Below are positions 7,786 through 54,000 of a stretch of DNA of 64,000 nt, in pieces (within the stretch, counting starts at the first letter, position 1; each line of letters starts with the position of its first letter). The DNA comes from Enterobacter asburiae (GTDB lineage: Bacteria; Pseudomonadota; Gammaproteobacteria; Enterobacterales; Enterobacteriaceae). The translations under genes and the position numbers were made by a program. A model generated the notes under the pieces. It was not told the origin of the DNA. It did not search any database and was given only the letters and a program-made list of their open reading frames with translations. The stretch lies in NCBI GenBank assembly GCA_011754535.1, contig JAAQVN010000002.1, positions 47,007-111,006 on the forward strand. Reading direction: 5' to 3'.

Positions 7786-7797
7786 ATGTGCTGTAAT

Positions 7798-7917
7798 TAG
7801 ATTCAGCATTCAGTTGTTGGCGCACAACAACCTGCAGGCGATTATCTGGTAAAAGTTACTGCCGAGCTGGACAACGGTGAACGGAAAGCCAATGGAACCG
7901 CCGCGCTGAAAGTCACG
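7798..7917 (+). pseudogene. Relic of the Ig-like/chitin-binding tail family
   Basis: The frame reads QQPAGDYLVKVTAELDNGER then KANGTAALKVT and stops. It parallels the LPGGDYTAEVSAWSDKGGRK segment shared by the M60 protease and the chitinase. This is a diverged fragment of that tail domain, cut off from any catalytic part and ending about 30 bp before the transposase gene. Confidence 0.5.
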
Positions 7918-7946
7918 TAAAAAGATGAACCAGGTACTGGGATCTA

Positions 7947-21329: not shown

Positions 21330-21671
21330 GCAATATTAACCACATAAAATAAGCAAATCATTACTCACCATTGTTATTATACACCAGCCCATCACCAGAG
21401 TAAAATCATCTTAAACATTTAAATAAATTTTTTGAAATGTTAGATACAATTTAGTTGAATAAAATTCATAGCGAAAGTTTTTACATGTCAGATAAACATG
21501 CCAAATATAATGTCAGGCCCAGTAGGATTTTTTTGTTTGCTTAAAAATGGGGGTGCAATGTAATTAATAGCAATTACACGCTACCCCTAACTTAAAAAAC
21601 ACAGGAAAATTCATCAGTTAAATAATACCAGCCGCATTGATTTTATTACATAGATAGTTAATTTTTATATA
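21330..21671. other. Gap between GNAT gene and luxR
   Basis: AT-rich, no gene seen. It is long enough to hold a separate promoter for luxR; I could not define a clear lux-box palindrome by eye. Confidence 0.4.
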
Positions 21672-22262: not shown

Positions 22263-22263
22263 C

Positions 22264-25285: not shown

Positions 25286-25393
25286 TTATCGAACTTCGTA
25301 TTTTATATGGATTAGGAATCTACTGTGCCGCTCCAATTTGGAGCGGCAGACCAGCCAAAACCTGAACACAAATAATTCGATTAACGATACAAT

Positions 25394-25753
25394 TTATTCG
25401 GGGCATTTATAAACATTACCAGTTAGTGTGACATTTGTTTGCGCCAATGATCCTGAACTATCGTATATACTCCCTGTCTGCCCTGCACGCTGTGTAAGTA
25501 AGGAAACTACATTCCCTCCCATTCCTGCAGCTTGGTTTTTTAGATCATTTCTAGCACCAGTTTCAAGGTTACTATTTGAGGTCCATTCGCCTGTTAAAAA
25601 GTTACCTTGATTACCTGTAATTTCACCTAAGTACTTACATTCTTTTCCTGGTTCGTTATTGGTCAACCTTACTTTCTCAGCACCTGGTTGTAGACTATCT
25701 GCGCTACAACCGCCAAGCGCCAGCACTGCTAACAGGACAGAGATTTTTTTCAT
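25394..25753 (-). CDS. DUF4156 family lipoprotein
   Basis: The 119-residue protein starts MKKISVLLAVLALGGCSADS, with a lipobox whose Cys is at residue 16. The mature part, with CKYLGEITGNQGNFLTGEWT and ARNDLKNQAAGMGGNVVSLL, fits the DUF4156 family of outer-membrane-directed lipoproteins of unknown function. ATG 25753 follows AAGGAATAGAC. A second Cys near the C-terminus (YKCPE) could pair with the one at CKYLG. It stands alone. Confidence 0.8.
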   Translation of the reverse strand: MKKISVLLAVLALGGCSADSLQPGAEKVRLTNNEPGKECKYLGEITGNQGNFLTGEWTSNSNLETGARNDLKNQAAGMGGNVVSLLTQRAGQTGSIYDSSGSLAQTNVTLTGNVYKCPE

Positions 25754-26211
25754 GTCTATTCCTTTTGTTTCAGAAGGAGTTGTGGGCAGAAATTGCAGCC
25801 AGCTAATAAATATCATCATAAACAACTAGGCATCTATAAAAATAAACATCATACTTTGCCTTGTTTAATTTGCTAAAATTACTAAACTATGAAAACATAA
25901 AACTCACCTCTCTTTTTAGTTATCCATTGCCTTATATTGTTCAAATAAATAATTTCCTTGATATGTGGTAGACAGGCTACTACTTCTATATTCTATTGTA
26001 TATAGAATACTTTTATGATAAATGCCATAAAATTAACGAAAAATAGTTGGTGATTCTGGACAGAATCCAGAACTGTAGTAAAATTTTTGAACTCTATTAA
26101 TTAAAATGTATCTTTGAAAAAGTAGACTATCTGCGGTACGCTCTGACGGACCTTTCATCCCGATTTTTCACGCAGCGCGCCGGAGGCTTTCCGGCCCGGA
26201 CGGAACCCGAC
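25754..26211. other. AT-rich spacer before the integrase
   Basis: No gene seen. It includes the lipoprotein promoter side and an inverted repeat ATTCTAT-N5-ATAGAAT near 25990-26010. Base composition switches sharply to GC-rich at about 26130, close to the integrase, so a recombination boundary may lie there. Confidence 0.45.
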
Positions 26212-27201
26212 ATGATCCTGATGCCCGACGACGAACCAGAGCTGAGTCTCCCCCCGGCGGTCCTTCCGCCCGGCGAGGAATTCCTGCCGGCCCTGTCCGG
26301 TGATAATGCTCCGGTCAGCCCGGCCCGGGCCTACCTGCTGTCCCTCAACTCCCCCCGCAGCCGGCAGACCATGGCCTCGTTCCTGAACATCGTTGCCGGC
26401 ATGCTCGGCGCCGCATCCCTGGAGTCCTGCAGCTGGGGCAGCCTGCGGCGCCATCACGTGATGGCCGTGACCGAGCTGCTGCGCGACACCGGCCGGGCCA
26501 CCGCCACGGTCAACACCTATCTTTCGGCACTCAAGGGGGTGGCGAAGGAAGCCTGGATGCTCCGACTGATGGACGTCGAGAGCTTCCAGCACATCCGGGC
26601 AGTGCGTAACCTGCGCGGCAGTCGTCTTCCGCGCGGCCGGGCCCTGCCACCGGAAGAGATCCGTTCACTGTTTGCTGCCTGCGAGGCCGATGATTCAAGT
26701 ATCGGCATCCGCGATGCGGCTATGCTGGCCGTCATTCTAGGCTGTGGCCTGCGTCGCTCGGAGGCCGTAGGGCTGGATTTGAGTGACGTTGTCACCCATG
26801 AGCAGGCGCTCCGGGTGCTGGGCAAGGGAAACAAGGAGCGGCTGGCCTACATGCCGGCGGGCACCTGGCAACGGCTCAGGATGTGGATCGATGACGTGCG
26901 GGGGGAAAAAGACGGGCCGCTGTTCACCCGCATCCGGCGCTTTGACACCCTGACAAATGCCCGGCTGACCGACCAGGCGGTGTACCATGTCCTGCAGGTG
27001 CGTCAGCGTCAGGCGGGCATTGTGAAATGCGCGCCGCACGATTTAAGGCGAACCTTTGCCACAGCCATGCTGGATAACGGCGAGGATTTAATCACGGTAA
27101 AGGATGCGATGGGTCATGCCAGCGTCACCACCACCCAGCAGTACGATCGCCGCGGCGAAGCGCGCCTGCGCTCGGCCCGTGACCGTCTGGATCTGATATA
27201 A
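26212..27201 (+). CDS. Tyrosine site-specific recombinase/integrase
   Basis: This 329-residue protein has the phage-integrase fold. An N-terminal core-binding region (about 30-125) is followed by the catalytic domain with GCGLRRSEAVGL (first Arg), HDLRRTFATAML (His-x-x-Arg), GHASVTTTQQYDR (His and nucleophilic Tyr). All catalytic residues are present. Enzymes of this type resolve plasmid multimers or move integrative elements. The gene is GC-rich and its neighbours on the left are AT-rich, so it probably came from elsewhere. Confidence 0.9.
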   Translation: MILMPDDEPELSLPPAVLPPGEEFLPALSGDNAPVSPARAYLLSLNSPRSRQTMASFLNIVAGMLGAASLESCSWGSLRRHHVMAVTELLRDTGRATATVNTYLSALKGVAKEAWMLRLMDVESFQHIRAVRNLRGSRLPRGRALPPEEIRSLFAACEADDSSIGIRDAAMLAVILGCGLRRSEAVGLDLSDVVTHEQALRVLGKGNKERLAYMPAGTWQRLRMWIDDVRGEKDGPLFTRIRRFDTLTNARLTDQAVYHVLQVRQRQAGIVKCAPHDLRRTFATAMLDNGEDLITVKDAMGHASVTTTQQYDRRGEARLRSARDRLDLI

Positions 27202-27413
27202 ACTTAATAACATTTCAAGATGATATGTTTACAAAATGGTGTGCGAAGTTGCTCGCAGGCTGCGCGATTTTCTGAAATGGTGTTAAAGCGGAACTTTCGT
27301 TAAAGTAGGTCTGCCGGTTATCCTGCTTCCCCTTCTGAACCGGGGTGGTTTGGATATGCGGGATGGCCGGTCCTTTTTGTTCTTTCGCCGGTTACCAGAT
27401 GTGATTTTGAGGG

Positions 27414-27830
27414 TTATGAAGCGTGAAAATCTTCTGCAACTTCAGAAAAGTAGCTGAGTAACCGGGAATCTCTCGCCGGCATACGTTCATGAGCCGGTGT
27501 TATAAGCCCCATCAGCAGAAAGCGTCCGCTATCCCACATGTGTTCTGTGTAAATGAGATAGTGATCTGAGGTACGGTTGTAATTCTCTTGTCTGGCACTC
27601 CAGGTTAGCTGGAAATGCAGGTTAACGTGAATATGCTGGACGTTAGCATCGACAGCGAATGGCGGGAAATCAAAAGGGACGTCCCTTCCAAGAAGATTCG
27701 ACGGTGCGCCAGTTGATTTATACGTGATGAACTCTGCTTGTAACTGGCTCTCCAGCTCAGGGTAAGCGGCAAACGTGGGCTGGAAAAACGTATCCCACGT
27801 GACATGACTGTACTCAGCCGTTAACGCCAT
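27414..27830 (-). CDS. yafO: YafO-type mRNA interferase toxin
   Basis: The 138-residue protein keeps the YafO pattern in order: FITYKSTGAPSNLLGRD, NVQHIHVN, NRTSDHYLIYTEHMWDSGRF and LITPAHERMPARDSRLLSYF. YafO cuts mRNA when bound to the ribosome and is normally encoded after an antitoxin. Here the gene overlaps by 10 bp the end of an upstream gene (27821-28360) that does not look like YafN, so that protein may be the antitoxin. The frame is intact and near the usual length. Confidence 0.75.
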   Translation of the reverse strand: MALTAEYSHVTWDTFFQPTFAAYPELESQLQAEFITYKSTGAPSNLLGRDVPFDFPPFAVDANVQHIHVNLHFQLTWSARQENYNRTSDHYLIYTEHMWDSGRFLLMGLITPAHERMPARDSRLLSYFSEVAEDFHAS

Positions 27831-30472: not shown

Positions 30473-32338
30473 TCAGAATTCTATCTGAGCGCCCAGTTCA
30501 ATGACCCGGTTAGGGGGTATACGGAACAGTTCCGGAGCACGCAATGAATTGCGCTGAAGGGCCTGGAATATTCTACCTCGTATTCGCAGATACCAGGTAC
30601 GCTTGCCCAGGACCAGCGTATCGCGAGACAGGAAAAATGACGTTTCACTCATGCTAAAACTCAGACCTTCTACGCCACATCGGTAAAGAATGTCCGTCAT
30701 ATCCGGAGTTTCACGCCAGCCATAGCGGGCAACCACCCGCCAGAAACTCGGAGATAGCTGCTCAATGGAGACACGTTTTACATTGTGTACATACGGGGCA
30801 TCAGCGGTCGCGACAGTAAGCATTACAATACGTTCATGCAGTACCTTATTGTGCTTAAGATTGTGTAATAACACCAGTGGTAAGGCATAAGGCGTACGTT
30901 CCATCAACACAGCAGTACCGGATACGCGCTGCTGTGGTGTTGTTTCCAGCGAGTTTATTAACGCAGTGAATCCTTCCTGGTTATCACGCAGACGATGGAT
31001 AAGCCGCGAACGTTCTGACTTCCAGGTCAGCATAAGCAACAGAATAATGAGTCCCAGCGCTACCGGAAGCCAGCCACCGGATACCAGCTTTATCAGATTG
31101 GCACCAAACAGGGGAATATCGATCACCAGCATGGCCAGCAACATGATGCCCCCCCAGTGTTGAGACCAGCCCCAGTTTTTTACCGCCACAATGCTCAGCA
31201 ATATTGATGTCAACGCCATGGTCCCCGTGACGACAATTCCGTAGGCAGAGGCCAAATGGCTGGAATGCTTAAAACTGATGATAACAATCAGCACGGCTGC
31301 GTAGAGCAGCCAGTTCACTGTCGGGATATAAATCTGGCCGGATTCCTGATCTGAAGTATAGATAATTCGTATGGGAGGAAGATACCCCAGGCGAACCGCC
31401 TGACGGGTCAGTGAAAATACGCCGGAAATCACCGCCTGAGAGGCGATCACCGTCGCCAGGGTAGCAATTAACAATAAAGGGATAAGCGCCCATTGTGGAG
31501 CCAGCAGGAAGAACGGATTATCTATCGCAGCCGGGTCAACAAGCAACAGCGCCCCCTGTCCAAAATAATTCAGCACCAGGGAAGGTCCCACTAATGTAAA
31601 CCAGGCAATCCGGATCGGTGTTTTACCAAAATGCCCCATATCGGCGTACAACGCTTCCGCGCCAGTTATTGACAGAACGGCCATACCCAGTGCAAAAAAC
31701 GATACTGCTTTGTATTCGAAAAAGAAATTCACGGCCCAGTAAGGGTTCATCGCCTGCAGGATCTGCGGATGACGCAGTATCCCCCCAATTCCCAGTAATG
31801 CAAGCGTAAGAAACCAGAGTACCATCACCGGCGCAAACAGTTTGCCGACACTGCCGGTGCCATGTTTCTGAATGGCAAACAGGGCCGTCAGCACAATAAG
31901 CGCCAGCGGAATAATCATGTGATCCAGTGATGGGGCAATGATCTCCAGCCCTTCAATAGCAGAAAGTACCGAAATTGCCGGGGTGATCACCCCATCCCCA
32001 TAGAAGAAGCTACCACCGACTAGGCCAAGAAATATGCTTGCCGGTATCCATCGTTTGTCCAGCTTCCGTACCGCCAGTGACATCAGTGTCAGAATACCGC
32101 CTTCGCCATCGTTGTCGGCACGCATAACAACGCAGATATACTTTATTGATACCACCAGTACCAGCAGCCAGAAGATAAGCGACAGAAAACCATAGATAGC
32201 GCTGTGGCTCAGGGAAATCCCTTTTTCGCTGGTCAGACACTCACGCAGGGTATACAGCGGACTGGTGCCTATATCACCATACACGACGCCAATAGCGGCC
32301 AGAGTTACCGACGATAATGGCTGTTTTTTTTCGTGCAT
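30473..32338 (-). CDS. kup: Kup low-affinity potassium transporter
   Basis: The 621-residue inner-membrane protein is full length for Kup/Trk[16 protein letters not shown] (about 18-32) is the family signature, followed by about twelve membrane segments and a cytoplasmic C-terminal domain. [15 protein letters not shown] and [14 protein letters not shown] are also typical. Kup takes up K+ (and Cs+) with protons. The frame is intact, with IS material on both sides, so it was probably carried in as a single-gene insert. K+ uptake genes are uncommon on virulence-type plasmids. Confidence 0.95.
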
Positions 32339-36145: not shown

Positions 36146-37126
36146 TTATCCAGGTAATGATCCCTTTAGTATATGAAGGGTTATGACAGCTGTCGATTTA
36201 CCAGCTTTCAATGATACTTCATGCCGTCCCGGTGACGTGAACAGGGATGAAAATTTATCATCTGGCATATCGATAAATACATTTCCTTCAGAAGAGGTTG
36301 CTCCTGTTCTCTTTAAGAACTCTTCTTTAGATAAATCATCCCCCCATTGAGCGAAAACCTGACAATGTTCAGTTTTAATTGATGAATTATAGGTTAAAAG
36401 GTAAATGCTATTTTTATTTACACCAGGGAATGCACCATGAACTCCCATGCATGATGACCATAACCCGGACCATGTCTGACTGATATATTCAGGTTTGCTA
36501 ACCAGTGCTTCATCCTCTAAATCCAGCGTTGCTGTCTGGCTTCCGCTAAACAATATCAGTTGTGTCTTCATTGTTTCAGCGTCAGTGACAGAAACAGCAG
36601 CAGTAATCTTTTCAGAAAAAGAGGTTCCAGCAAGCACAGGGTATTTATCTGCCAGTTTTTCCGGGACTGTCCAGTCGTATATTCCCGGGGTGGGCATTCC
36701 TGAATAAAAAGAAAAAATATCATTTTTTATATACCCCCAGGGCCCTCCTTCAAACGGGGTTGTAATACCAGTTGCAAAAACAGCATCGGCTCCTTCATGA
36801 AGGAATTCCGGTGATGAAAATTCTTTATAGAAGTTACTGAATAATAAGTTGTAATTCCCTTTTGGACTCAGCCTGGCTAGGTTTTTTTTGCTATACAATG
36901 TAGTACCTAAAGGTTCTCCGTCAGGTGCATATTCCACATAACCACCATCTATCTTTGTGGCGAAAGGCGTTCCCTTAAAATTTGGCCATTTTTTGATTAC
37001 CGGGATAGCTTTTTCGCAATGATGGGTTTCAGCGTTACATTCAGATACAATGTATTCTCCGGCATATGAAATGTATGGGGTAAAACTAATCATGGTTGAG
37101 GAAAATACAACTTCTTTAAGTTTCAT
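36146..37126 (-). CDS. Secreted hypothetical protein, 326 aa
   Basis: A signal sequence (MKLKEVVFSSTMISFTPYIS-YA) precedes a mature part with two Cys near the start (SECNAETHHCEK) and later Cys pairs (SSCMGVHG, TEHCQVFA). Segments such as YVEYAPDGEPLGTTLYSKK and ADAVFATGITTPFEGGPWG suggest a blade-like repeated fold. It shares no obvious constant tail with its neighbours but lies on the same strand as the 694-aa protein, about 370 bp downstream of it. No family recognised; co-function with the adjacent secreted proteins is inferred from position. Confidence 0.65.
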   Translation of the reverse strand: MKLKEVVFSSTMISFTPYISYAGEYIVSECNAETHHCEKAIPVIKKWPNFKGTPFATKIDGGYVEYAPDGEPLGTTLYSKKNLARLSPKGNYNLLFSNFYKEFSSPEFLHEGADAVFATGITTPFEGGPWGYIKNDIFSFYSGMPTPGIYDWTVPEKLADKYPVLAGTSFSEKITAAVSVTDAETMKTQLILFSGSQTATLDLEDEALVSKPEYISQTWSGLWSSCMGVHGAFPGVNKNSIYLLTYNSSIKTEHCQVFAQWGDDLSKEEFLKRTGATSSEGNVFIDMPDDKFSSLFTSPGRHEVSLKAGKSTAVITLHILKGSLPG

Positions 37127-37421
37127 AACGCAATCCTATTTAGCAAGCATTTAAGAAATGAGCTGTCCGAGGCCGGAATAGAGTGAAAATAAATTTCACA
37201 CCCCCCCGCAAACAGTAAGACCTAACATTCTTGTTAAGATGTGAAAATTTAAATCATGGATGCGAAATATATCGCCAGGCAAAATTACTCTGATAGCCGA
37301 CAAGCAGCCGCATGAAATAAGTAAATTATAAATTGATTTATTTCTCATTTATTATATCTCTTTTGATTGGGGTTCACTTTTATGCCACGATTTTTAGTCG
37401 CCTGCTGGCCCAATAGGGGTG

Positions 37422-38222
37422 AAGCTGCAATATGACGGCATTCAGCCCCCTGAAACGGGCGTTACTCTCCCTGCCGGGAGAGCAACGCAGGGCATTTAAT
37501 TTCCTGTCTGACAAAAGACTGCAGGCGTACAGCCCGTCACTTCGACATCACCATCACTGGCAACCCACAGCCGGTTACGGTACTGGCTGGCCAGCGGACT
37601 GACTGTCTGGCCACCATCAGCAGACACCTCCCCGAGCTTAATCACATCAGACTGCGCGTTTACTTTCCGGGCCACGTCCATCGCCCATGTGAAACGGTTC
37701 TTTGTATTCAGCCCGTCAACTTCAAGCGGAGACCTGGCTCCACTTTTTTTACTGAACAGCTCAAACACCATTTTTTCAGGCAGCACCGACTGTTCGCCGG
37801 TGACCAGGCTGGCCGGCAGTGCGCTGTCATCACGGTTGTTGAGACGCCATTTGTCGTCAGTTGCCTCAGACGGAAGGAATGCCAGCCGGACAGTGGCTCC
37901 CTGCCATTTTTCGCCTTCAGGCAGCCAGAAATGGTTGCGGTACGAACTGGCCAGTGGCGTAATGACCCCGTTTTCCATTTCTCCGGCTTTCAGTGCTCCG
38001 CCGCTGCGGTTAATGGCTTCCGCCAGGCGTAACGGCCAGGCAGTGATGCCCAGCATGTCCGGGTCAGCGGCAGGCAGTGTCAGGGCGCCGGAATCCAGGG
38101 AGGTACCGTCCGGGGTGTTCACCTGCCAGGTGATATGCCGGTGACTGTGAAGCGGTGTACCCTGCTCTTCCGGCAGGGTACCGCTGATGGCCAGCCCGGT
38201 GTCTGCATACTCTCCACTGGCT
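37422..38222. repeat. Left arm of 0.8-kb inverted repeat
   Basis: These 801 bp are the reverse complement of 41266-42067, identical by eye except for one extra base in a G-run (about 37449 versus 42040). The arm covers the C-terminal 245 codons of the minus-strand gene and about 70 bp beyond its stop. Confidence 0.9.
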
Positions 38223-39580
38223 GTGTCCAGCGGCCAGGCAGAGAGCGTGTCCGAATAAAACGTATACATTACACCGTCATGAATTAGAGGCGGGAGACTG
38301 AATTCTGCTAACAAACTATTTCCAATAACATGACGAATACCAGAATCAGGGAAAACTATTTTTTTTCGTTGCCCTTTGGACGAAAAACCGATTACACCTT
38401 CCTCCCATGTTCCATACCCAATTTTTGTATTATGGTAAGCAAAATATCCCCAGCCGGTAGCAGAGTCGAAAGTGATGTCCCCAGCATTTCCAAGATTAAA
38501 AAAATGAAAATCCGCTTTTTCTGGCGTTATTTCAAATTTTACCTTGCCGGTATCCCGGTTATAAGCCACAACTTTTTGTGTCAGCATCTGATAAAACAGT
38601 TTTTTTTGTGGGTCGGATGTCAGCCCGCCCCAGAACTTAATTGATGTGTCACTTGTATTTGCAGGGAAGCTGACCGATGGAAAACCAGCATCAATAATGG
38701 TATCGGAGAAAGGCGTCATTTTATCCAGAACCCCAATACCATTTTCGTCCACATTCCAGCGGAAAACACAGCCCTGTGGCATTGCCAGCAGTGAGGCGGG
38801 TGTAATTTCTCCAGCAACGGATTGGTTATTGTCAGAACGAATAACATTACCATCCCTGGTATCCAGAATAGCCACAGCCCCTGACGTATGGTGGAGCAAC
38901 TTTCCCTCTTCCTCGCTGAGGAGCAGATTATCATGTCTGCCAAAACCCTCCGGAATTGAGAGCCGGGCCTGCCAGAGCACATTGTCTGTTTTGTTATTCA
39001 GGTCCAGCGCAACCACTGTAACCTGCCCTGACGAATCGGGAATGGAGAGGTATGCGCGGGTAAAATCTTTGCTGTACACCACATTCATTTTTCCGATTTT
39101 AAATTCCAGGAGCTGTTCCCTGGATAATATTGGGCTGCTGAAAATATTCTCTGGCTGAAATTTATTTCCCGGATATGCCTGATAAAGCGCAATGTAACCA
39201 GTATTATCATCAGTATAACGAATAACCGGGAACAGTAATCTGCCATCCCCGGTTAAAACAATACCCGCCGCGTTGAGTCCCCAGGAGCCATATGCTCCCC
39301 ACTGGCTTACCTGACCCGCTTTACTGACGGTATGCCCGTGGATACCACAACGGTTTTTTTTATCACTATCAAACTCCGAAGGACGACAATCTAGGCCGCC
39401 AATAGCATAAATACCGCCATCCGGTGCCGGGAGTAAACGGTCCGTAATGGTATCCAGCGTTGTCTCCCAGGCTTTTTCAGCATGAACAATTTCCTGTTCC
39501 GCAAATGCGGAAGCACATAATATAAAGCCAAGTCCTGTCATTATTAATCTGTGATAACATCTATTATTTTTAACGACCAT
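37496..39580 (-). CDS. Secreted head/tail protein A, 694 aa
   Basis: A signal peptide (cleaved near ASAFA, about residue 27) leads to a 420-residue head of repeated strand segments resembling a beta-propeller (RLLPAPDGGIYAIGG, GRLLFPVIRYTDDNTGYIAL, TVVALDLNNKTDNVLW). From ASGEYADTGLAISG on, the last 245 residues are identical to protein B (40007). This tail holds two copies of a module ending PLAS-x-YRN-xx-W (SSYRNHFW and SQYRNRLW, 120 residues apart). AAGGGG precedes the ATG. The gene is divergent from protein B. Family unknown to me; surface display, adhesion or effector roles are all possible. Confidence 0.75.
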   Translation of the reverse strand: MVVKNNRCYHRLIMTGLGFILCASAFAEQEIVHAEKAWETTLDTITDRLLPAPDGGIYAIGGLDCRPSEFDSDKKNRCGIHGHTVSKAGQVSQWGAYGSWGLNAAGIVLTGDGRLLFPVIRYTDDNTGYIALYQAYPGNKFQPENIFSSPILSREQLLEFKIGKMNVVYSKDFTRAYLSIPDSSGQVTVVALDLNNKTDNVLWQARLSIPEGFGRHDNLLLSEEEGKLLHHTSGAVAILDTRDGNVIRSDNNQSVAGEITPASLLAMPQGCVFRWNVDENGIGVLDKMTPFSDTIIDAGFPSVSFPANTSDTSIKFWGGLTSDPQKKLFYQMLTQKVVAYNRDTGKVKFEITPEKADFHFFNLGNAGDITFDSATGWGYFAYHNTKIGYGTWEEGVIGFSSKGQRKKIVFPDSGIRHVIGNSLLAEFSLPPLIHDGVMYTFYSDTLSAWPLDTASGEYADTGLAISGTLPEEQGTPLHSHRHITWQVNTPDGTSLDSGALTLPAADPDMLGITAWPLRLAEAINRSGGALKAGEMENGVITPLASSYRNHFWLPEGEKWQGATVRLAFLPSEATDDKWRLNNRDDSALPASLVTGEQSVLPEKMVFELFSKKSGARSPLEVDGLNTKNRFTWAMDVARKVNAQSDVIKLGEVSADGGQTVSPLASQYRNRLWVASDGDVEVTGCTPAVFCQTGN

Positions 39581-40006
39581 AAATTACCCCTTGTATTAAT
39601 TGAGGTTGATCTTAAACTACACCCCCCCCCTGAAATCTGAATTTTGCCTGATATTAATATATCCTCTGGCCATACTCATGATGGCGCCCTGCAGCATTAA
39701 CAGTGGCGGGTTGCCGGAAAACAGGTCTGAATTGTTTTTTAATGAAGCACCACCGGAAAGTCCTGCTGGACAAGGATGCAACCTCCCCTTGCCTGCCACT
39801 GACAGCAGGCACTGTGGAAAAAATCCGGATGTGGTGCTACGTATCACCTCCTTTTTGCTGAGGGGCAATCAATTTCATTAGCATAAAATCATAAATATAT
39901 CATTAGCGTCACTTTGTCATTTCTGTGTAATCTGGAACGAAATCTTTGTTGTGACTTTTATACAATCCGCAGTGACTTATCAAGTTATTACATACGAGCT
40001 AAATAA
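39581..40006. other. Divergent promoter region of proteins A and B
   Basis: No supported gene. A 9-base C-run lies at about 39623. The right half is AT-rich before protein B. It sits at the centre of the segment between the inverted repeats, so inversion would swap which gene faces which flank. Confidence 0.45.
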
Positions 40007-41992
40007 ATGAAAAAAAAACAGTTACATTTAAATTTATTGTTAATTGCACTGGCTTACTTTGGGCTATCATCTTCCTCTTTTGCTGACTTGCAAAAAAAAG
40101 AAGATATAAAATTAGGCATGGATGTTGTCTGTGGCGTTAAACTCGTATCAGATGGTGATCTTTATGCAACAGGTTATAATTATAAAAATAAACAAACTCT
40201 GCTTTATAAAGTATTGCAACAAAATTTCACATTAATCCATGAGGGCACGATAGAAAGTCCGGATGGAGGTGAGGTGAGTTGTAGTTCAAAAATTATTCCC
40301 GGCAAGGAAGAAGACCTGTTTATACCTGTTAACTGGGTGATATATCATGGAGGCGGAAATGGTTATAGTTCTGCAGGCTATGTTTATCGTGTGAAATTCA
40401 AGAAAAATAAAAACGCTGTTGTGTTTAAGAAGGATGATATTCATTTTGATAAGGTTTTTTTAGGAAAGGACATAACGAAACTGTACGTAAGCTCTTATGC
40501 TACCTGGTCTATGGATCGTCACAGCACAAGTATTACAGAGATTAATCTCGATAATAACACAGTCTCATGGGAAAATGATTTTCGTCTTGCATCGCGAGGC
40601 AGTATTATCAGCCCTGACAACACCATGATTTACCTTATTGATGAACAAAAAGCGGATATTGTATCCTTGCCAGAAAGAAGAGTTATTGATGAGACGCCTC
40701 ATTTTATTGATGGGTTTGCTCCTGGGATAGATAATTATGGTGACATTTATGGAACGAGATACGGCAATCTATTAACTATGGCTAAAATTCAGCCATTTAC
40801 TTCTTCCCCCGATAAGCTGCTATGGCAAATGCCATATCCTCATTCTTTATTTGATGAAGGGGACGGTTACAAGAAATTAGTCCCTGGTTCCGATGGGGCA
40901 ATTTATGTAGATGGTGTATCAAAAACTGAAGGTGCCGGAATTCTGGTTTTCGACCCGAAATCGAGTATTCAGAAAACGTTTATCCCCTTCCCGTCAGAAA
41001 ACGTAGACGCTGCCCCCTATGCAGTATCTCCTGCTGTTTTTGATAAAAATACCGGGCAGGGTTACAGTTATTCCTATTCGCTAAAAGAGACTGAAAATGG
41101 CAGAGATCGTAGCTTTACCGTCTGGTCATTTTCTCCTGAAACGAAAGAAACGAATATTATTTCTACCTTTAATACAGGTGATTATTTCCCTCAGTTTTTT
41201 AATGTTATTAACAATAAACTATTTCTGTTTATAAAAGATACTCTCCATATCCTCCCGCTGGGCATAGCCAGTGGAGAGTATGCAGACACCGGGCTGGCCA
41301 TCAGCGGTACCCTGCCGGAAGAGCAGGGTACACCGCTTCACAGTCACCGGCATATCACCTGGCAGGTGAACACCCCGGACGGTACCTCCCTGGATTCCGG
41401 CGCCCTGACACTGCCTGCCGCTGACCCGGACATGCTGGGCATCACTGCCTGGCCGTTACGCCTGGCGGAAGCCATTAACCGCAGCGGCGGAGCACTGAAA
41501 GCCGGAGAAATGGAAAACGGGGTCATTACGCCACTGGCCAGTTCGTACCGCAACCATTTCTGGCTGCCTGAAGGCGAAAAATGGCAGGGAGCCACTGTCC
41601 GGCTGGCATTCCTTCCGTCTGAGGCAACTGACGACAAATGGCGTCTCAACAACCGTGATGACAGCGCACTGCCGGCCAGCCTGGTCACCGGCGAACAGTC
41701 GGTGCTGCCTGAAAAAATGGTGTTTGAGCTGTTCAGTAAAAAAAGTGGAGCCAGGTCTCCGCTTGAAGTTGACGGGCTGAATACAAAGAACCGTTTCACA
41801 TGGGCGATGGACGTGGCCCGGAAAGTAAACGCGCAGTCTGATGTGATTAAGCTCGGGGAGGTGTCTGCTGATGGTGGCCAGACAGTCAGTCCGCTGGCCA
41901 GCCAGTACCGTAACCGGCTGTGGGTTGCCAGTGATGGTGATGTCGAAGTGACGGGCTGTACGCCTGCAGTCTTTTGTCAGACAGGAAATTAA
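40007..41992 (+). CDS. Secreted head/tail protein B, 661 aa
   Basis: The protein starts with a signal peptide (MKKKQLHLNLLLIALAYFGL…, cleaved near SSFA). Its 415-residue head differs from protein A in sequence but has the same kind of repeated strands (DLYATGYNYKNKQTLLYKVL, DNTMIYLIDEQKADIVSLPE, NTGQGYSYSYSLKE). The C-terminal 245 residues are identical to those of protein A, down to the final VFCQTGN. Codons in the head are AT-rich while the tail is GC-richer, so the tail looks like a transplanted constant cassette. Likely exported through the Sec pathway; no catalytic motif seen. Confidence 0.75.
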   Translation: MKKKQLHLNLLLIALAYFGLSSSSFADLQKKEDIKLGMDVVCGVKLVSDGDLYATGYNYKNKQTLLYKVLQQNFTLIHEGTIESPDGGEVSCSSKIIPGKEEDLFIPVNWVIYHGGGNGYSSAGYVYRVKFKKNKNAVVFKKDDIHFDKVFLGKDITKLYVSSYATWSMDRHSTSITEINLDNNTVSWENDFRLASRGSIISPDNTMIYLIDEQKADIVSLPERRVIDETPHFIDGFAPGIDNYGDIYGTRYGNLLTMAKIQPFTSSPDKLLWQMPYPHSLFDEGDGYKKLVPGSDGAIYVDGVSKTEGAGILVFDPKSSIQKTFIPFPSENVDAAPYAVSPAVFDKNTGQGYSYSYSLKETENGRDRSFTVWSFSPETKETNIISTFNTGDYFPQFFNVINNKLFLFIKDTLHILPLGIASGEYADTGLAISGTLPEEQGTPLHSHRHITWQVNTPDGTSLDSGALTLPAADPDMLGITAWPLRLAEAINRSGGALKAGEMENGVITPLASSYRNHFWLPEGEKWQGATVRLAFLPSEATDDKWRLNNRDDSALPASLVTGEQSVLPEKMVFELFSKKSGARSPLEVDGLNTKNRFTWAMDVARKVNAQSDVIKLGEVSADGGQTVSPLASQYRNRLWVASDGDVEVTGCTPAVFCQTGN

Positions 41993-42067
41993 ATGCCCTG
42001 CGTTGCTCTCCCGGCAGGGAGAGTAACGCCCGTTTCAGGGGGGCTGAATGCCGTCATATTGCAGCTT
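41266..42067. repeat. Right arm of 0.8-kb inverted repeat
   Basis: Reverse complement of 37422-38222. It covers the tail of protein B and about 75 bp of downstream sequence. The spacer between the arms is 3043 bp. Confidence 0.9.
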
Positions 42068-42089
42068 TGCTTCCATTGGGCCAAGAAAG

Positions 42090-42300
42090 TCGGACTCGAA
42101 AGAGGGAGAACTTTCGGTAAATTTCCTGCCAGCAATAGTGCCAGAGCTGCCGGGTCAATCCGTCAGACAGTACGGGGATGGGATTTGAGCCACAAAACAC
42201 CGATATCGCTGGAGACAATGGTACATGTTACGAGGCTGGGTCGCTTACTATGGACGCTTTTATCGACATATTGCCAGACATGTCGATCTGTACCTTGCAT
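42090..42300 (+). pseudogene. Group II intron maturase, C-terminal relic
   Basis: SNSARAAGSIRQTVRGWDLS (about 42120-42190) and, in another frame, LRGWVAYYGRFYRHIARHVD (from 42228) match the conserved end of group II intron reverse transcriptase/maturases (…IRQ..R.W.L…RGW..YYGRFYR). A frameshift separates the two. The intron RNA and the RT domain are not present. Confidence 0.6.
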
Positions 42301-42424
42301 CTTCACCGTGGTTTACTTTCAGCATCTCGGACTGATCTCATAAATATCAGTAAAATATCATAAAAACCGTGCGCGTCCCTTTGCTAACCATCTAAATTTG
42401 ACGTTTGATTTTTAAGGTTCTCTT

Positions 42425-44614
42425 ATGAAACGTAAAATGCCTGTTTTGCGTGCAACAGTCTTTATTTCTTTGGTCGCTGTACCTACGGTGCAATCGCAGT
42501 CTCTCAGCTTTTCTGATGATGAGGTAAAGAATAGTCCGGTTATTAAGCTGCTCTCTGGAGATAATGGCAATAACTATGCGTTAAGGGCGAAATGTGACGT
42601 TAATGGCAATGGTGCTCTGTTTGTGCAGGCTTTCAGTAACGATAATAGCAGTCGCTTACACTATGTGCAGATCGATACTGGGGCCTACATTCGAAGTCAG
42701 TCTGGGCAAGGGTGTTTTCCTGACTGGATGAAAAGTTATGATTTTCAGTTCATGCAGGGGCTGCTTTGGCTTAGCGCTCCGGTAAATATCTCAAAATCTG
42801 ATGGTAATATCGAAACCCGGCTACACGTCTGGCAGATTCAGGCCGATGAGCATTCAACCACGGCCCATCTGATTTTTCAGACCGAACCTGAAGATATTGA
42901 AAAACTATATAAGGTTTTAGCAATAGCTCTGGATGGCATTAATAAAAAACTTTACCTGAGAGCCAGTACAGTTGAAGAGGAAAGTGGTGGCCAGTATCGA
43001 AAAGCAAAAGGAAAATTGTTCACGGGAGATCTTGTACTTCAGCACGAAAATTCCTTATCCACTCCACTCATGCTTTTCTCTCATTCCAGACCTGATATAT
43101 CTGTCTCCTCTTTAGGGCTTTTTATCAATGCTGATTCTGCTAAAAAGGGCCCACACGTATTGGCTCTAAGCAGTTTTAATCCATTAGAAGCAATTTACTA
43201 TGCGGAATATTTTAAATTGAATTCACAGGGACTCCTGAACCGAGAGAGTATCAACGGAAATGAGGATAATGAAAACGGGATAATGTTGCGGCCAGGTGGC
43301 TTAACCACACAAACGAGCCAGTATGATTATGATACCAGCCAGGGGTTGCTATACAGTCGAACCGACTTACCAGCTTTCGTCCAAATATCAGCCTGTAAGT
43401 TATTTACTCCTTTTGCGGCTGATTTTTGCACCTTTTCTGAAAAGATTTATACCAGTGATGCTGCGGGATTGTACTCGATTACTCATAACGATAATGAAGT
43501 CATCGCTTCAGGGGAAAAAAATATTTTCACTTTCACCTTAAGTCCCACCAGACAATTGCAACAAGCGTTTCATTTCGATCTCGATGAAGGCAACTTTCCC
43601 GGTATGATATTTAACGGTAAAAATTTACCGGCATTTTCGCATCCTGCGTCAAATGCTTTCTATCGGGCGTACTGGGACCGCAATAGCCGGAACATTAAAA
43701 TAATAAAAATCAGTCGCGATGGTCACACCATAGATGAAGCGTTCTGGGTTGCACCAGAAGAAGTTAATCACGGTAAGTCAGGTGAAAACGACGATAGTCT
43801 GAAAGACTTGTTTGACAATAACACCAGGATGCAACTCAATCACAATACAATCATCCTGACGATAAAAAACCAGATATATTTGGTTCAGATCGAAGATAAG
43901 GAAACAACAAAGTCGTTAATTGCACTACAACAAATTGACGGAAAACTCATCCCGGAAAGGGAGCGTAAGCATCCTCATCGTATTAGCTGGGAAGTGTATG
44001 ATAAAGACAACAATCGCGTTGATACAGCGTCGGGATATCTCGATATTGACGGTTCAGACCCAATGCTGCTGGACCCGTTCCGCTGGCCTATGCTGGTCAG
44101 CGAAGCTATTAATCGTCAGGGAGGCATGCTGAAGGCCGGCGTAAAACAGCAGAAAGGGGATAACATCGTCCCGGGTAAACCGGAGGCAAGTCAGTACCAG
44201 AACTGGCTGTGGCTGGCGGAAAATAAAGTGTCAGAAGGATATCATGTTTCACTGAGCGTCGACCTGCTGCAGGAAGCTCCGGCATCTGTCTGGTCCCTGA
44301 ACTCCTTTGATGCTCAGCAGGCATTTGTCAGCGAGGAAGGAGATGATTTCAGTAAGAAGACCATCCACTTCACCGTTACCCGGGAGGGAGAAAAAACGCA
44401 GGAGTATATTTTTACCACCCGGGAGAAGGACCGTTTCATGGCGGTGATGGATATTGCCCGGCAGGTTAATAAGACCATCCCGGATGTTCAGTTGGGAGAG
44501 AAAGCGTCCGGTGACATTGTCACACCTCTTGCTTCCCAGTACCGCAATACAATCTGGGTAAAAACTGGTGCCAATGGAAAGCCGTCTGTTTCTGTTAAGT
44601 GGCGGGTTGAGTAA
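42425..44614 (+). CDS. Secreted head/tail protein C, 729 aa
   Basis: A signal peptide (cleaved near VPTVQSQS) precedes a roughly 510-residue head with its own sequence. The tail is a diverged relative of that in proteins A and B: HRISWEVYDKDNNRVDTASG matches HITWQVNTPDGTSLDSG, WPMLVSEAINRQGGMLKAGV matches WPLRLAEAINRSGGALKAGE, and both YRN-xx-W modules are kept as SQYQNWLW and SQYRNTIW, 115 residues apart. So three neighbouring genes share one architecture. Head regions carry no recognised domain. AAGG lies upstream of the ATG. Confidence 0.75.
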   Translation: MKRKMPVLRATVFISLVAVPTVQSQSLSFSDDEVKNSPVIKLLSGDNGNNYALRAKCDVNGNGALFVQAFSNDNSSRLHYVQIDTGAYIRSQSGQGCFPDWMKSYDFQFMQGLLWLSAPVNISKSDGNIETRLHVWQIQADEHSTTAHLIFQTEPEDIEKLYKVLAIALDGINKKLYLRASTVEEESGGQYRKAKGKLFTGDLVLQHENSLSTPLMLFSHSRPDISVSSLGLFINADSAKKGPHVLALSSFNPLEAIYYAEYFKLNSQGLLNRESINGNEDNENGIMLRPGGLTTQTSQYDYDTSQGLLYSRTDLPAFVQISACKLFTPFAADFCTFSEKIYTSDAAGLYSITHNDNEVIASGEKNIFTFTLSPTRQLQQAFHFDLDEGNFPGMIFNGKNLPAFSHPASNAFYRAYWDRNSRNIKIIKISRDGHTIDEAFWVAPEEVNHGKSGENDDSLKDLFDNNTRMQLNHNTIILTIKNQIYLVQIEDKETTKSLIALQQIDGKLIPERERKHPHRISWEVYDKDNNRVDTASGYLDIDGSDPMLLDPFRWPMLVSEAINRQGGMLKAGVKQQKGDNIVPGKPEASQYQNWLWLAENKVSEGYHVSLSVDLLQEAPASVWSLNSFDAQQAFVSEEGDDFSKKTIHFTVTREGEKTQEYIFTTREKDRFMAVMDIARQVNKTIPDVQLGEKASGDIVTPLASQYRNTIWVKTGANGKPSVSVKWRVE

Positions 44615-44960: not shown

Positions 44961-45174
44961 TACCGCATCAAGTAGCGATGCCGGACAAAGCGTATTCACG
45001 ATCTCACCACCTGACTAAGGCGCGAATCCCATGGGCAGAATGTTATAGGCTGGCGCAAGACGATATGGATGACCATGCGCACTGACACATCATAAGCTAG
45101 ACTACTAGTCTGATATGTATACGTTAATGATTCATGTCATAATTTTTGCGAATCAAACCAACATAAGGTTATTT

Positions 45175-45465
45175 ATGAAAAAATTTATTATGATAGCACT
45201 TGTTGCTGCGGCTGTTTCTGGCTGTGCCCAACAATCATTCTCAGTAAACAAAGCAGCGACGTTCGTACCTCAGCAAGTCACGACACATCATTTCTTCGTC
45301 AGCGGCATTGGTCAATCTAAGCAAATTGATGCTGCTCAGATTTGCGGTGGTGCCGATAAAGTTGTTCGTACTGAAGTTCAGCAGACTTTTGTAAATGGAT
45401 TACTTGGATTTATTACATTCGGTATCTATACCCCTCGTGAAGCAAGAGTTTATTGCGCGAAATAA
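45175..45465 (+). CDS. bor: Bor/Iss family serum-survival lipoprotein
   Basis: The 96-residue protein starts MKKFIMIALVAAAVSGCAQQ with a lipobox, and continues THHFFVSGIGQSKQIDAAQI, CGGADKVVRTEVQQTFVNGL and LGFITFGIYTPREARVYC, nearly identical in pattern to phage lambda Bor and plasmid Iss. These outer-membrane lipoproteins raise resistance to complement. ATG 45175 is chosen at the signal peptide; the frame opens 20 codons earlier without a ribosome site. Complete and likely functional. Confidence 0.93.
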   Translation: MKKFIMIALVAAAVSGCAQQSFSVNKAATFVPQQVTTHHFFVSGIGQSKQIDAAQICGGADKVVRTEVQQTFVNGLLGFITFGIYTPREARVYCAK

Positions 45466-48075: not shown

Positions 48076-51000
48076 ATGATATTTAAAAATAGAGAGGACG
48101 CGCGTGCGTCTGAAAATAAGTTATTACAACGACTTTCCCGTTTTCTGATATTTACCGCTTTTATTTTTACTGTTAGCACTCTAAGTGCTAATAATACTGT
48201 GACTAATCTACCTACCGAGCAGCGGTACATTCTTTATTATAAAACACCCGCAGTAACGACGCAGGATATTAAAAAATATCTGGCTCCAGAACTTAAGGAT
48301 TTACCAGCTCTGCAAAATGAGCTGGCGATACGCTATGGGCTTAAACTGACCGAATGGCTATTGCTGCCCGATGATAATGCCTACACTCGTCATTATCCCG
48401 CAGTAACGCTTAATTACATCGGTAAAGATGAAGACATCCTGAAATTCACGCTTGACAGAAAACTCTCACACACGCAATTACTCAGGCTTAACCATGCAGT
48501 TAAATCGCCAGCGCAACTAAAAGACCTGCGAGGTCAATGGGTAATTGTGCCAACTGAAAGGCCTAAATCTGTGTCAGAAGTACACAATGAACGCGCGTCG
48601 ATGCTGACACAACAAGCGGCATCACTAGGAAAAAATATCCAAATGTCAGGGATGAATAACGCATTGCGTTCCGCGGCCAGTCAGCACCTTAATAACATAC
48701 TTACCGCCGAAGTTGAATCCTGGCTTAATGGCAAGAACAGTAAAGCCCGTGTTACGCTGGATAGCGGGACCAGCAAACAGGGTCGGCCCTCTGTCGGCCT
48801 GGATTACCTATACCCTTTTGCTGTCTGGCCGAGTGATATTCTTTTTACTCAGTTGAGTGCCCACCGTAAAAACTCACGTGATATTGTCAACCTCGGGCTT
48901 GGCTGGCGTCATAATTCAACTCCCCAACTGATGACAGGCAGTAACGTCTTTGTTGATCATGATATAACACGTCATCACAACCGTCTGGGGCTGGGTCTGG
49001 AGTTGTGGACAGAGCAGTTCCGCAGTAGCCTGAACTACTACATTCCTCTGAGTGGCTGGCGTTCCTCATCCGATACCGTTTTTCTGGATGATTCTGATTA
49101 TTTTTCACTTTATGAGCGCCCAGCACGTGGCTGGGACGTGAATGTCATTACAGCGTTATCACGCCATATTTCTGTCAACGCCAGCTGGTTTAAGTGGTAC
49201 GGTGATAAGGTGGATGTGACCGGCAACCGTGATCAATCAAGTAAAAACCCCGGAGGCCTTACGCTTGGGATACGCTGGCAACCCGTCCCGTTACTGAGCA
49301 GCCTGGCCGAACATCGCCTTATTACCGATCAGGATGATGAAATTAGGATAGGCATACAGCTGACCTGGGAGTTTGGCCGCAAATTTTCAGAACTACTGGA
49401 TCCGGCCAACGTTACTTTATCCCCTTCGTTATTGCAGTCACGCAACGAATTCGTAACCCGGAATAACGACATTGTTCTTGCTTACCAGCGGCGTAGTAAA
49501 GATACCCCCCTGCGCTTTGAGCCGGCGACAATGAGCGCGAAAGCTGGAAGTCCCCCCTTCACTCATACAGTACAGGGGGCATTTGGTACGGTTATCTATC
49601 ACTCAGCACAGCCCGAACTGGCCAGCGTGGACGCCACCAATGGTATGGTCACGCCATTACGTCGTGGGCAAACCACGATTTATGCCACAGAACATCATCA
49701 GCGCACCGGCAAAGCACGTCGACAGACGAGCTATGCCCTAACCATCCAGCCAGGTGATGCACTGCCGGGCGCCACTGATGTCACAATCAGCGGAGAAATG
49801 GCCTTAGAGAATCAACTCACGGGCCATTACAGTTATCAGGACAATAATGGTGAGGATGAAGCCGTAGGTGGCTCAGTTGTTAGCTGGTACTACGAGGATG
49901 CTCCGGATGCCATACTCTCTTCGGAGAAAACGTATACGATTAGTGAACATGATGCAGAAAAGGTGCTGGTCTTCCGTGTTATCCCCAAAAATCGGGCAGG
50001 CATAACCGGCCAGCCAGTAGAAGCCCGAATCCAGGGCCTACGTCGCCCAACTGTGCAGGATGTTGATATTATCGGCCCGGTGATAGTCGGCCAGACTGTC
50101 AACGCCATCTGGACAGGTCATCGAGCACTTGACCCCACCGTAAACAACGGTGCCGATATTCGCTGGGTAACTGTGAATAATGCAGGTGATGAAAAACAGG
50201 TAGGGGAAGGTGCTACGCTTACTCTTACAGAAGAGATGCGTACTCAGGGAGCACTTGAAGTCCGGGTCACACCATTGAGTCCTGGTGGGCTAAAAGGTGA
50301 GGAAATATGCTCACCACGTTACACAATTCTGCCTGCAGAACCGTTCTTCAGCGAAATGCCGTCTGTCAGCCCCGCGGAAGGGCTTTCACCGGGCGACCTA
50401 CTGACGCTTAATTACGGGTACGGATCTCACCCGGAGGTCAGCGAAGGAGAGAGTCGCTACAGCTGGTTCCGCGTTTCTCCTGATGGTGGTAACCGCCAGG
50501 AAATAGCAGGTCAGACGGCCCGCACCTACCGGTCCGTTGCGGAAGATGCAGGCTATGCCCTGACTGCCTGTGTTCAACTGGTGGATGCAAAAGGCACGGT
50601 TTCCACGACGACCGAGTGCAGTGCGCCGTCACAACCGATAGGCTCGCTGCCGGTTATCAGCAATGTTGATATCAACGGACTGAAGGTGGTGGGACAGACT
50701 GTCACCGCCAGCTGGCAGGCTGCCCGCAGTGACGTTCAATTCCAGGTACGCTGGTACACTGTCGCCGACACGAGTACAGAGACGCTGGTCGGCGAGGAAG
50801 CCACCCTGTTGCTCACACAGGAAATGATGCAAAGTGGCCAGCTCGAAGTTCGCGTCACGCCGCTGAATGAAAATACGGTGTCCGGGCAGGAGGTTATTTC
50901 ACCACGTTACACAATTCTGCCTGCAGAACCGTTCTTCAGCGAAATGCCGTCTGTCAGCCCCGCGGAAGGGCTTTCACCGGGCGACCTACTGACGCTTAAT

Positions 51001-54000
51001 TACGGGTACGGATCTCACCCGGAGGTCAGCGAAGGAGAGAGTCGCTACAGCTGGTTCCGCGTTTCTCCTGATGGTGGTAACCGCCAGGAAATAGCAGGTC
51101 AGACGGCCCGCACCTACCGGTCCGTTGCGGAAGATGCAGGCTATGCCCTGACTGCCTGTGTTCAACTGGTGGATGCAAAAGGCACGGTTTCCACGACGAC
51201 CGAGTGCAGTGCGCCGTCACAACCGATAGGCTCGCTGCCGGTTATCAGCAATGTTGATATCAACGGACTGAAGGTGGTGGGACAGACTGTCACCGCCAGC
51301 TGGCAGGCTGCCCGCAGTGACGTTCAATTCCAGGTACGCTGGTACACTGTCGCCGACACGAGTACAGAGACGCTGGTCGGCGAGGAAGCCACCCTGTTGC
51401 TCACACAGGAAATGATGCAAAGTGGCCAGCTCGAAGTTCGCGTCACGCCGCTGAATGAAAATACGGTGTCCGGGCAGGAGGTTATTTCACCACGTTACAC
51501 AATTCTGCCTGCAGAACCGTTCTTCAGCGAAATGCCGTCTGTCAGCCCCGCGGAAGGGCTTTCACCGGGCGACCTACTGACGCTTAATTACGGGTACGGA
51601 TCTCACCCGGAGGTCAGCGAAGGAGAGAGTCGCTACAGCTGGTTCCGCGTTTCTCCTGATGGTGGTAACCGCCAGGAAATAGCAGGTCAGACGGCCCGCA
51701 CCTACCGGTCCGTTGCGGAAGATGCAGGCTATGCCCTGACTGCCTGTGTTCAACTGGTGGATGCAAAAGGCACGGTTTCCACGACGACCGAGTGCAGTGC
51801 GCCGTCACAACCGATAGGCTCGCTGCCGGTTATCAGCAATGTTGATATCAACGGACTGAAGGTGGTGGGACAGACTGTCACCGCCAGCTGGCAGGCTGCC
51901 CGCAGTGACGTTCAATTCCAGGTACGCTGGTACACTGTCGCCGACACGAGTACAGAGACGCTGGTCGGCGAGGAAGCCACCCTGTTGCTCACACAGGAAA
52001 TGATGCAAAGTGGCCAGCTCGAAGTTCGCGTCACGCCGCTGAATGAAAATACGGTGTCCGGGCAGGAGGTTATTTCACCACGTTACACAATTCTGCCTGC
52101 AGAACCGTTCTTCAGCGAAATGCCGTCTGTCAGCCCCGCGGAAGGGCTTTCACCGGGCGACCTACTGACGCTTAATTACGGGTACGGATCTCACCCGGAG
52201 GTCAGCGAAGGAGAGAGTCGCTACAGCTGGTTCCGCGTTTCTCCTGATGGTGGTAACCGCCAGGAAATAGCAGGTCAGACGGCCCGCACCTACCGGTCCG
52301 TTGCGGAAGATGCAGGCTATGCCCTGACTGCCTGTGTTCAACTGGTGGATGCAAAAGGCACGGTTTCCACGACGACCGAGTGCAGTGCGCCGTCACAACC
52401 GATAGGCTCGCTGCCGGTTATCAGCAATGTTGATATCAACGGACTGAAGGTGGTGGGACAGACTGTCACCGCCAGCTGGCAGGCTGCCCGCAGTGACGTT
52501 CAATTCCAGGTACGCTGGTACACTGTCGCCGACACGAGTACAGAGACGCTGGTCGGCGAGGAAGCCACCCTGTTGCTCACACAGGAAATGATGCAAAGTG
52601 GCCAGCTCGAAGTTCGCGTCACGCCGCTGAATGAAAATACGGTGTCCGGGCAGGAGGTTATTTCACCACGTTACACAATTCTGCCTGCAGAACCGTTCTT
52701 CAGCGAAATGCCGTCTGTCAGCCCCGCGGAAGGGCTTTCACCGGGCGACCTACTGACGCTTAATTACGGGTACGGATCTCACCCGGAGGTCAGCGAAGGA
52801 GAGAGTCGCTACAGCTGGTTCCGCGTTTCTCCTGATGGTGGTAACCGCCAGGAAATAGCAGGTCAGACGGCCCGCACCTACCGGTCCGTTGCGGAAGATG
52901 CAGGCTATGCCCTGACTGCCTGTGTTCAACTGGTGGATGCAAAAGGCACGGTTTCCACGACGACCGAGTGCAGTGCGCCGTCACAACCGATAGGCTCGCT
53001 GCCGGTTATCAGCAATGTTGATATCAACGGACTGAAGGTGGTGGGACAGACTGTCACCGCCAGCTGGCAGGCTGCCCGCAGTGACGTTCAATTCCAGGTA
53101 CGCTGGTACACTGTCGCCGACACGAGTACAGAGACGCTGGTCGGCGAGGAAGCCACCCTGTTGCTCACACAGGAAATGATGCAAAGTGGCCAGCTCGAAG
53201 TTCGCGTCACGCCGCTGAATGAAAATACGGTGTCCGGGCAGGAGGTTATTTCACCACGTTACACAATTCTGCCTGCAGAACCGTTCTTCAGCGAAATGCC
53301 GTCTGTCAGCCCCGCGGAAGGGCTTTCACCGGGCGACCTACTGACGCTTAATTACGGGTACGGATCTCACCCGGAGGTCAGCGAAGGAGAGAGTCGCTAC
53401 AGCTGGTTCCGCGTTTCTCCTGATGGTGGTAACCGCCAGGAAATAGCAGGTCAGACGGCCCGCACCTACCGGTCCGTTGCGGAAGATGCAGGCTATGCCC
53501 TGACTGCCTGTGTTCAACTGGTGGATGCAAAAGGCACGGTTTCCACGACGACCGAGTGCAGTGCGCCGTCACAACCGATAGGCTCGCTGCCGGTTATCAG
53601 CAATGTTGATATCAACGGACTGAAGGTGGTGGGACAGACTGTCACCGCCAGCTGGCAGGCTGCCCGCAGTGACGTTCAATTCCAGGTACGCTGGTACATC
53701 GTCGGCAATAATGGATTGGAAGATGTCGAAAGACTGGTAGGAGAACAGAACTCCCTGACGCTGACACGTGACATGAAAAACCGCGGCGGACTGGAAGCCC
53801 GCGTCACGCCACTGACTCCGGGGGGGATAGCGGGTCTGGAAGTCCGTTCACCGCGTTATGCTATTAAGCAGTCTGAAGCCTATTTCGTGGAGAGACCTAC
53901 GCTGGCACCGCCTGACAGCCTTCGTCCCGGAACCACCGTGACTGTAAACTGGCGTTACGGTTCATATCTGAATATTCCGGAGGGCAATAGCCGGATTGAG

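Follow-up and report, generated by a model that had tools for sequence, protein, structure and literature searches.

The window, by which we mean the whole stretch of 64,000 nucleotides that was analysed, is contained in the 111-kb second contig of a 4.96-Mb genome. It carries two genes, A and B, which are transcribed divergently and whose 3′ ends form inverted arms of 812-813 bp. The following features are located here:

37496..39580, minus strand: gene A, 694 aa; Sec-type N-terminus (read by eye), beta-propeller-like head (residues 27-453) and a tail with two GbpA_2-type domains.
40007..41992, plus strand: gene B, 661 aa; Sec-type N-terminus (read by eye), beta-propeller head (residues 28-419) and a tail (residues 417-661) as in A.
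37422..38233, minus strand: arm 1, the shared tail of A plus 74 bp beyond the stop codon.
41255..42067, plus strand: arm 2, the shared tail of B plus 75 bp beyond the stop codon.
38234..39580, minus strand: head of A, with a dS of 0.42 to the A head of plasmid pEC105227L (see below) and 39% DNA identity to the head of B.
40007..41254, plus strand: head of B, with a dS of 0.89 to the B head of pEC105227L.
39581..40006: divergent intergenic region of 426 bp on the start sides of both genes; it lies inside the spacer and would invert together with both genes.
37406..37421, minus strand: diverged residual homology outside arm 1, end of the homogenised tract.
42068..42083, plus strand: diverged residual homology outside arm 2, end of the homogenised tract.
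42425..44614, plus strand: gene C, a third paralogue, 729 aa; its tail is ~35% identical and not homogenised.

A repeat search returned the arms as 37446-38233 and 41255-42042, 788 nt each, 100% complementary as printed and 3021 nt apart. Comparison of the bases revealed two mismatches between the arms, both within the first 11 nt of the inner edge, where they change a D/G and a T/I codon, and one indel in a G5/G6 run 3′ of the stop codons. Beyond the stops the identity of the two arms continues for 74-75 bp, to positions 37422 and 42067; the 16 bp outside each arm are recognisably homologous yet diverged and lie within a second repeat pair. About 800 matching bases cannot be due to chance. 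An earlier, sequence-only reading of this DNA had described an inverted repeat with shared tails and one homopolymer indel past the stops, and this is borne out. It had also called the 245-residue tails identical; the length is correct, but two residues differ, at the two inner-edge codons. A promoter scan of the intergenic region gave 8 promoter-like sites versus 9.2 in shuffles and thus no excess; a terminator scan gave 8 terminator-like sites versus 5.5 (sd 3.1) in shuffles.

The 326-aa neighbour encoded at 36146-37126 has no match to the A/B family profile. Between arm 2 and gene C (42104-42343) there is a frame-broken remnant that resembles the 3′ part of a group II intron maturase, as read by eye from the translations (compare positions 7396-8634 of stretch L016 of pEC105227L). 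Further genes of the window encode a plasmid Kup-type potassium transporter (30473-32338), for which both Pfam domains are matched nearly over their full length, a Bor-type lipoprotein (45115-45465; PF06291) and a 2237-aa inverse autotransporter that combines an intimin-like beta domain with a long series of Ig-like repeats (48076-54789). An M60 (enhancin-like) peptidase with PKD-like domains and a weak CBM5/12 match (E 0.096) is encoded at 56479-58992, and a GH18 chitinase with PKD-like domains at 60954-63956; unlike the peptidase, the chitinase has no CBM5/12 match. Just upstream of the chitinase gene, positions 60463-60853 are 89% identical to positions 22365-22755 of stretch L004 of pEC105227L, where an ISAs1 transposase is annotated next to them.

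According to the N-termini read by eye, A and B apparently are exported proteins. The heads of 449 aa (A) and 416 aa (B) are 18.5% identical, while the tails, 245 aa in both proteins, agree in 243 of 245 residues. Structure models assign a beta-propeller fold (WD40/BamB/YxaL-like) to both heads; the middle of the head A model is of low confidence (whole-model mean pLDDT 62.4). In each model the propeller ends at the head/tail junction. The tail is poorly resolved in both models, and the structural matches (VIA-align) chiefly cover the heads. The heads had been described as different, which is true of their sequences, but the modelled folds suggest that they are probably remote homologues and not unrelated.

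The two tail domains are of the GbpA_2 type (PF18416, Pfam E 1e-13, 51 bits versus a cut-off of 26.6). Up to an E of 1, no AA10 catalytic domain was among the Pfam matches of A, B and C, the GbpA equivalog profile scored 21 against its 481-bit cut-off, and the family profile matches CbpD (7sqx) with an E of 1.3e-4. The GbpA_2-type tail domain is best read as a general add-on, because in another genome (G179) such domains come after a reprolysin-like peptidase. Export via the type II secretion system of the host is possible, since the host encodes a secretin that scores above the curated cut-off (540 versus 351 bits). A and B would function as exported surface- or glycan-binding proteins.

Among 72,556 plasmid records only one, the Enterobacter bugandensis plasmid pEC105227L (NZ_CP110986.1), contains relatives of both A and B (E 1e-5). 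It has the same divergent pair (eA/eB, the window genes being wA/wB), and also holds an orthologue of C elsewhere, a second B-type gene (eB2) and, beside eB2, a divergent relative termed D. Near the eB2/D pair, positions 21630-23579 of stretch L016 encode a 649-aa exported-looking protein without a GbpA_2 match; it may be a related head that carries a different tail. In a Serratia record the match to C covers only 12%. The comparison at the DNA level is thus one of two plasmids, the window plasmid and pEC105227L.

The tails of A and B differ at 2 of 738 positions within the window and at 0 of 738 within pEC105227L; between the plasmids, each comparison of the two pairs gives 85 differences in 738 positions (11.5%). 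The tail dS is 0 within both pairs and 0.35 between the plasmids, and at a dS of 0.35 the probability of finding zero synonymous changes over 182 synonymous sites is ~1e-26. Homogenisation therefore reaches the silent sites and does not reflect protein constraint alone. The dN/dS ratio is ~0.18 for the tail, ~0.35 for head A and ~0.19 for head B, so that constraint on the tail exceeds that on head A but not that on head B. The heads behave differently: A and B heads share 39-40% DNA identity, while orthologous heads of the two plasmids share 82% (A to A, dS 0.42) and 77% (B to B, dS 0.89). Since both head types are found on both plasmids and are this dissimilar from each other, the A/B paralogues predate the split of the plasmids, and each lineage must therefore have homogenised its tails at least once after that split. 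The tails of the paralogues are closer to each other within a genome than to their orthologues, which is concerted evolution.

The degree of homogenisation differs among the copies on a plasmid. The tail of eB2, which is located ~74 kb from the eA/eB pair, differs at 37 of 738 positions from eA/eB and at 78 of 738 from wA/wB and is less homogenised than the inverted pair. Gene C, on the same plasmid as A and B, with 35% tail identity, has not been homogenised. The arms in pEC105227L are 1157 bp long with 3 mismatches and have different outer flanks. Both contain an annotated PqaA fragment and the same IS6-type end at one site; the simplest explanation is that one arm was copied to the other, and not that there were two insertions. 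At the inner tract end there are 2 mismatches in the first 11 nt in the window versus 0 in pEC105227L, as would be expected if the tracts stem from separate events.

At third codon positions the tails have a GC content (GC3) of 0.60-0.62, versus 0.32-0.43 in five A/B-type heads; in the window GC3 rises from 0.43 (head A) and 0.32 (head B) to 0.62 in the tail. The step is smaller in C, D and a relative from Winslowiella and is not seen in the relative from Rouxiella. It is suggestive of GC-biased conversion, or of separate origins of head and tail.

To search beyond these plasmids, the tail was compared with 5.8 billion proteins, which yielded 12 proteins, two of them the window's own. Three kinds of head occur on this tail family, the A type, the B type and a B variant, so other heads on the same tail, for which the earlier reading had proposed to look, do exist. 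The tails of P0007 (A type) and P0008 (B type) are 99.2% identical (2 of 245 residues differ), and 82.2-90.6% identical to the eight other full tails; P0007 and P0008 are likely a third A/B pair from one strain. P0013 (B head) and P0014 (A head) are fragments named E. bugandensis; for each, 3 members and a single 3231-bp contig are listed. The pairing of P0007 with P0008 and the common contig of P0013 and P0014 are deduced from the sequences and the equal length of 3231 bp, and may represent one strain each. The spacers in the two plasmids are 3047 and 3189 bp long. P0013 and P0014 end at the head/tail border to within one or two residues, as would be expected if identical arms interrupt an assembly.

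The remaining proteins include a B-type protein from Cedecea (P0009) and another B-type protein from a further source (P0004), whose tail is 98.0% identical to the pEC105227L pair; P0010 has a partial tail of 61 residues that is 98.4% identical to P0007. These near-identities indicate that relatedness of strains or exchange between strains also shapes the tails. A tree was calculated from 10 tails, omitting P0010 (61 tail residues), P0013 and P0014 (no tail) and the distant P0011, P0012, C and D. Starred clades (100/99) are formed by the window pair and by the P0007/P0008 pair, and the pEC105227L pair is identical. A clade of A tails is rejected (4 changes, AU p 1.27e-52). Two of the six inner branches are starred and three are open.

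The A/B family is rare. It is present in 1 of 61 genomes of the genus, which is the window's own, in 4 of 392 genomes of the family sample (two of those for tail-like domains only), in 2 of 394 genomes of the order sample and in 3 of 40 relatives of genome G349. Named relatives are from Rouxiella silvae and Winslowiella iniecta (2 of 46 stretches); these are apparently chromosomal, to judge from the neighbouring genes. Viral contigs and phage records contained no relative, nor did the E. coli genomes searched with the tail DNA or the genome contigs of the initial scan.

Taken together, near-identity of the tails within plasmids, their divergence between plasmids, the coincidence of the junction with the modelled domain border, the diverged residual homology beside the arms and the lack of homogenisation with gene C make it very probable that the tails of two old paralogues have been homogenised recurrently by recombination, that is, have evolved in concert. 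A and B would be old divergent paralogues in which a beta-propeller head precedes two GbpA_2-type tail domains. Their arms would undergo homologous recombination, presumably of the ordinary RecA type, and the resulting gene conversion, whether or not accompanied by crossovers, would repeatedly equalise the tails. The homogenised tract would stop on its inner side at propeller heads that differ too much, and on its outer side at the end of the homology; the diverged residual homology at the tract ends fits gene conversion by homologous recombination. Since the inverted repeats are arranged tail-out, a crossover would merely invert the spacer and leave both genes intact, so that exchange would be tolerated; such crossovers and inversions are presumed to occur. 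The proteins would be secreted, possibly via the type II system, with the shared tail binding a surface or glycan and the heads conferring different specificities. Of the two origins offered in the sequence-only reading, recent gene conversion or duplication, conversion is thus supported, as a recurrent process (0 and 2 of 738 differences within pairs versus 85 of 738 between), and a single recent duplication is rejected.

Such a duplication, in which one constant tail cassette was copied and fused to two heads, would account for the identity at silent sites and for the common 3′ flank of the A and B tails. However, pEC105227L, whose tail pair has diverged from that of the window, already has the same A and B heads on this tail family, and a third line likely has them as well; diverged homology persists outside the arms, and A, B, C, D and the Rouxiella relative fit one full-length alignment, though the heads are only ~20% alike. 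We therefore regard a single duplication as highly unlikely. We give just as little credence to an assembly artefact, in which arms that differ in the cell would have been merged into one sequence and duplicated during assembly. Assemblers are known to stumble over identical repeats, and head fragments in other entries stop at the arm border, but the window arms retain one indel and two mismatches, the pEC105227L arms retain 3 mismatches and differ in their outer flanks, 2 of the 245 tail residues distinguish P0007 from P0008, and likeness of tails within pairs appears in independent records. It is also conceivable that recombination between plasmids brought in both tails from elsewhere, so that neither was copied from the other, and exchange between lineages may indeed occur, as the B heads are recombinant (see below) and the P0004 tail is near-identical to that of pEC105227L. 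In every lineage, however, one and the same foreign tail would have had to be taken up twice, and the eB2 tail, on the same plasmid, stays 37 of 738 positions away from eA/eB, which makes it extremely unlikely.

The flip of the spacer as a switch, suggested by the earlier reading, is not supported. Programmed inversion, in which arm recombination would flip the spacer and thereby switch or diversify A and B, could draw on the ~800-bp inverted arms that flank both heads, on arm recombination that clearly occurs on evolutionary time and on a tyrosine recombinase gene linked on both plasmids. But both genes start within the spacer and have their tails in the arms. A flip would therefore move each start region together with its own head and attach that head to a tail of the same sequence, and the two proteins made would not depend on the orientation, with the possible exception of the two edge codons. 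The integrase block at 25311-27520 has a match in pEC105227L on the A side and in the same direction, ~10 kb from the arm in the window and <1 kb in pEC105227L, and relative to it the spacer has the same orientation in 2 of 2 plasmids. The linked tyrosine recombinase (integrase) is present in 1734 of 72,556 plasmid records at E <= 1e-60, versus 1 with the A/B pair, and headless tail copies are absent from the 3 places in the window's own genome where tails are found, all in open frames of 661-732 aa. Because a flip leaves the proteins unchanged, the orientation agrees and the recombinase tested is generic, a programmed switch is unsupported and we consider it improbable. The linked tyrosine recombinase was also tried as a candidate for a dedicated invertase and rejected as a common plasmid gene. 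The arms are mostly coding, and other recombinase genes are annotated on pEC105227L.

Some shuffling is real. The first part of the eB2 head is like eB and the second part like P0008, with a breakpoint near residue 275: informative sites are P0008-like at 18 of 77 positions before the breakpoint versus 43 of 52 after it, and 0 of 2000 shuffles were as strong. In three more comparisons of B heads the breakpoint falls at 251-281, and a signal of that strength arose in 0-3 of 2000 shuffles. The B heads are thus mosaics, and propeller blocks, too, are exchanged. The idea of a diversification system survives on this account in a weaker form, through recombination of B heads near residue 275 and not through a switch by inversion. 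More speculatively, and in our view rather doubtfully, the locus might serve modular variation of exported beta-propeller proteins: the tail-out inverted layout would be favoured since recombination breaks no gene, a common docking or export tail would be kept, and blocks of propeller blades (the B breakpoint near residue 275) would be passed between paralogues and between plasmids, so that the binding targets of the heads vary.

Partial concerted evolution of paralogue pairs is a process already known from other bacteria. The primary paper on the bab genes is reportedly that of Pride and Blaser 2002. In Helicobacter pylori, babA and babB resemble each other more within a strain in their 3′ segments, which is interpreted as concerted evolution through gene conversion inside the genome (PMC3960876), and for segment 3 of homB versus homA the Ks is 0.051 within and 0.202 between strains (PMC2795765). 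Like A and B, these outer-membrane protein genes have gene-specific 5′ parts and a 3′ segment that is most similar within a strain. Unlike them, A and B are located on a plasmid of an Enterobacter-like host, belong to another protein family and are arranged as a divergent inverted pair, with tails that lack any silent difference within a plasmid and heads that are only ~19% identical. The inverted repeat of the Saccharomyces 'flip/flop' region is likewise one of recurrently homogenised paralogous genes; each strain and species has homogenised its own copies, and the intervening region inverts (PMC9731477). As described there, the region differs from A/B in being eukaryotic, with 4-kb arms, a 24-kb region and homogenisation of whole genes, and it is found in both orientations, versus one orientation in 2 of 2 plasmids here.

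Among enterobacterial repeated genes kept alike by recombination, rates and conversion tracts have been measured for the duplicate tuf genes of Salmonella (PMC5485169), and a rate of 8.6e-6 per operon per donor per generation is quoted for E. coli rRNA operon conversion (PMC8022953); this rate, if valid here, would keep the arms alike. The repeats in tuf and the rRNA operons are whole genes with one function, whereas A and B share the 3′ part only and differ in their heads. A survey covers long-lasting concerted evolution in prokaryotes (PMC6053082). CbpD carries a GbpA2 domain (PMC9344471); the A/B tail resembles the chitin-active LPMOs GbpA and CbpD in its GbpA_2 domain, and differs in lacking an AA10 match and in having two GbpA_2-type domains behind a propeller. 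The sequence-only reading knew of no description of such a design. The process has been described, for the 3′ segments of babA/babB and homA/homB; for this gene family or such a plasmid pair, no description appears among the literature matches listed, which comprise titles and abstract openings, with subscription papers mostly outside.

The A/B pair is a clean case in which one half of a gene evolves in concert and the other half does not, and C, D and the distant eB2 copy are natural comparisons on the same plasmids. The system would allow measuring how inverted orientation, distance and length of homology govern gene conversion on plasmids. It also draws attention to a rare family of propeller and GbpA_2 proteins on Enterobacter-type plasmids; in the window, genes for a chitinase, an M60 peptidase and an intimin-like protein are its neighbours. 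Because of these neighbours, the target of A and B could be an insect or gut surface.
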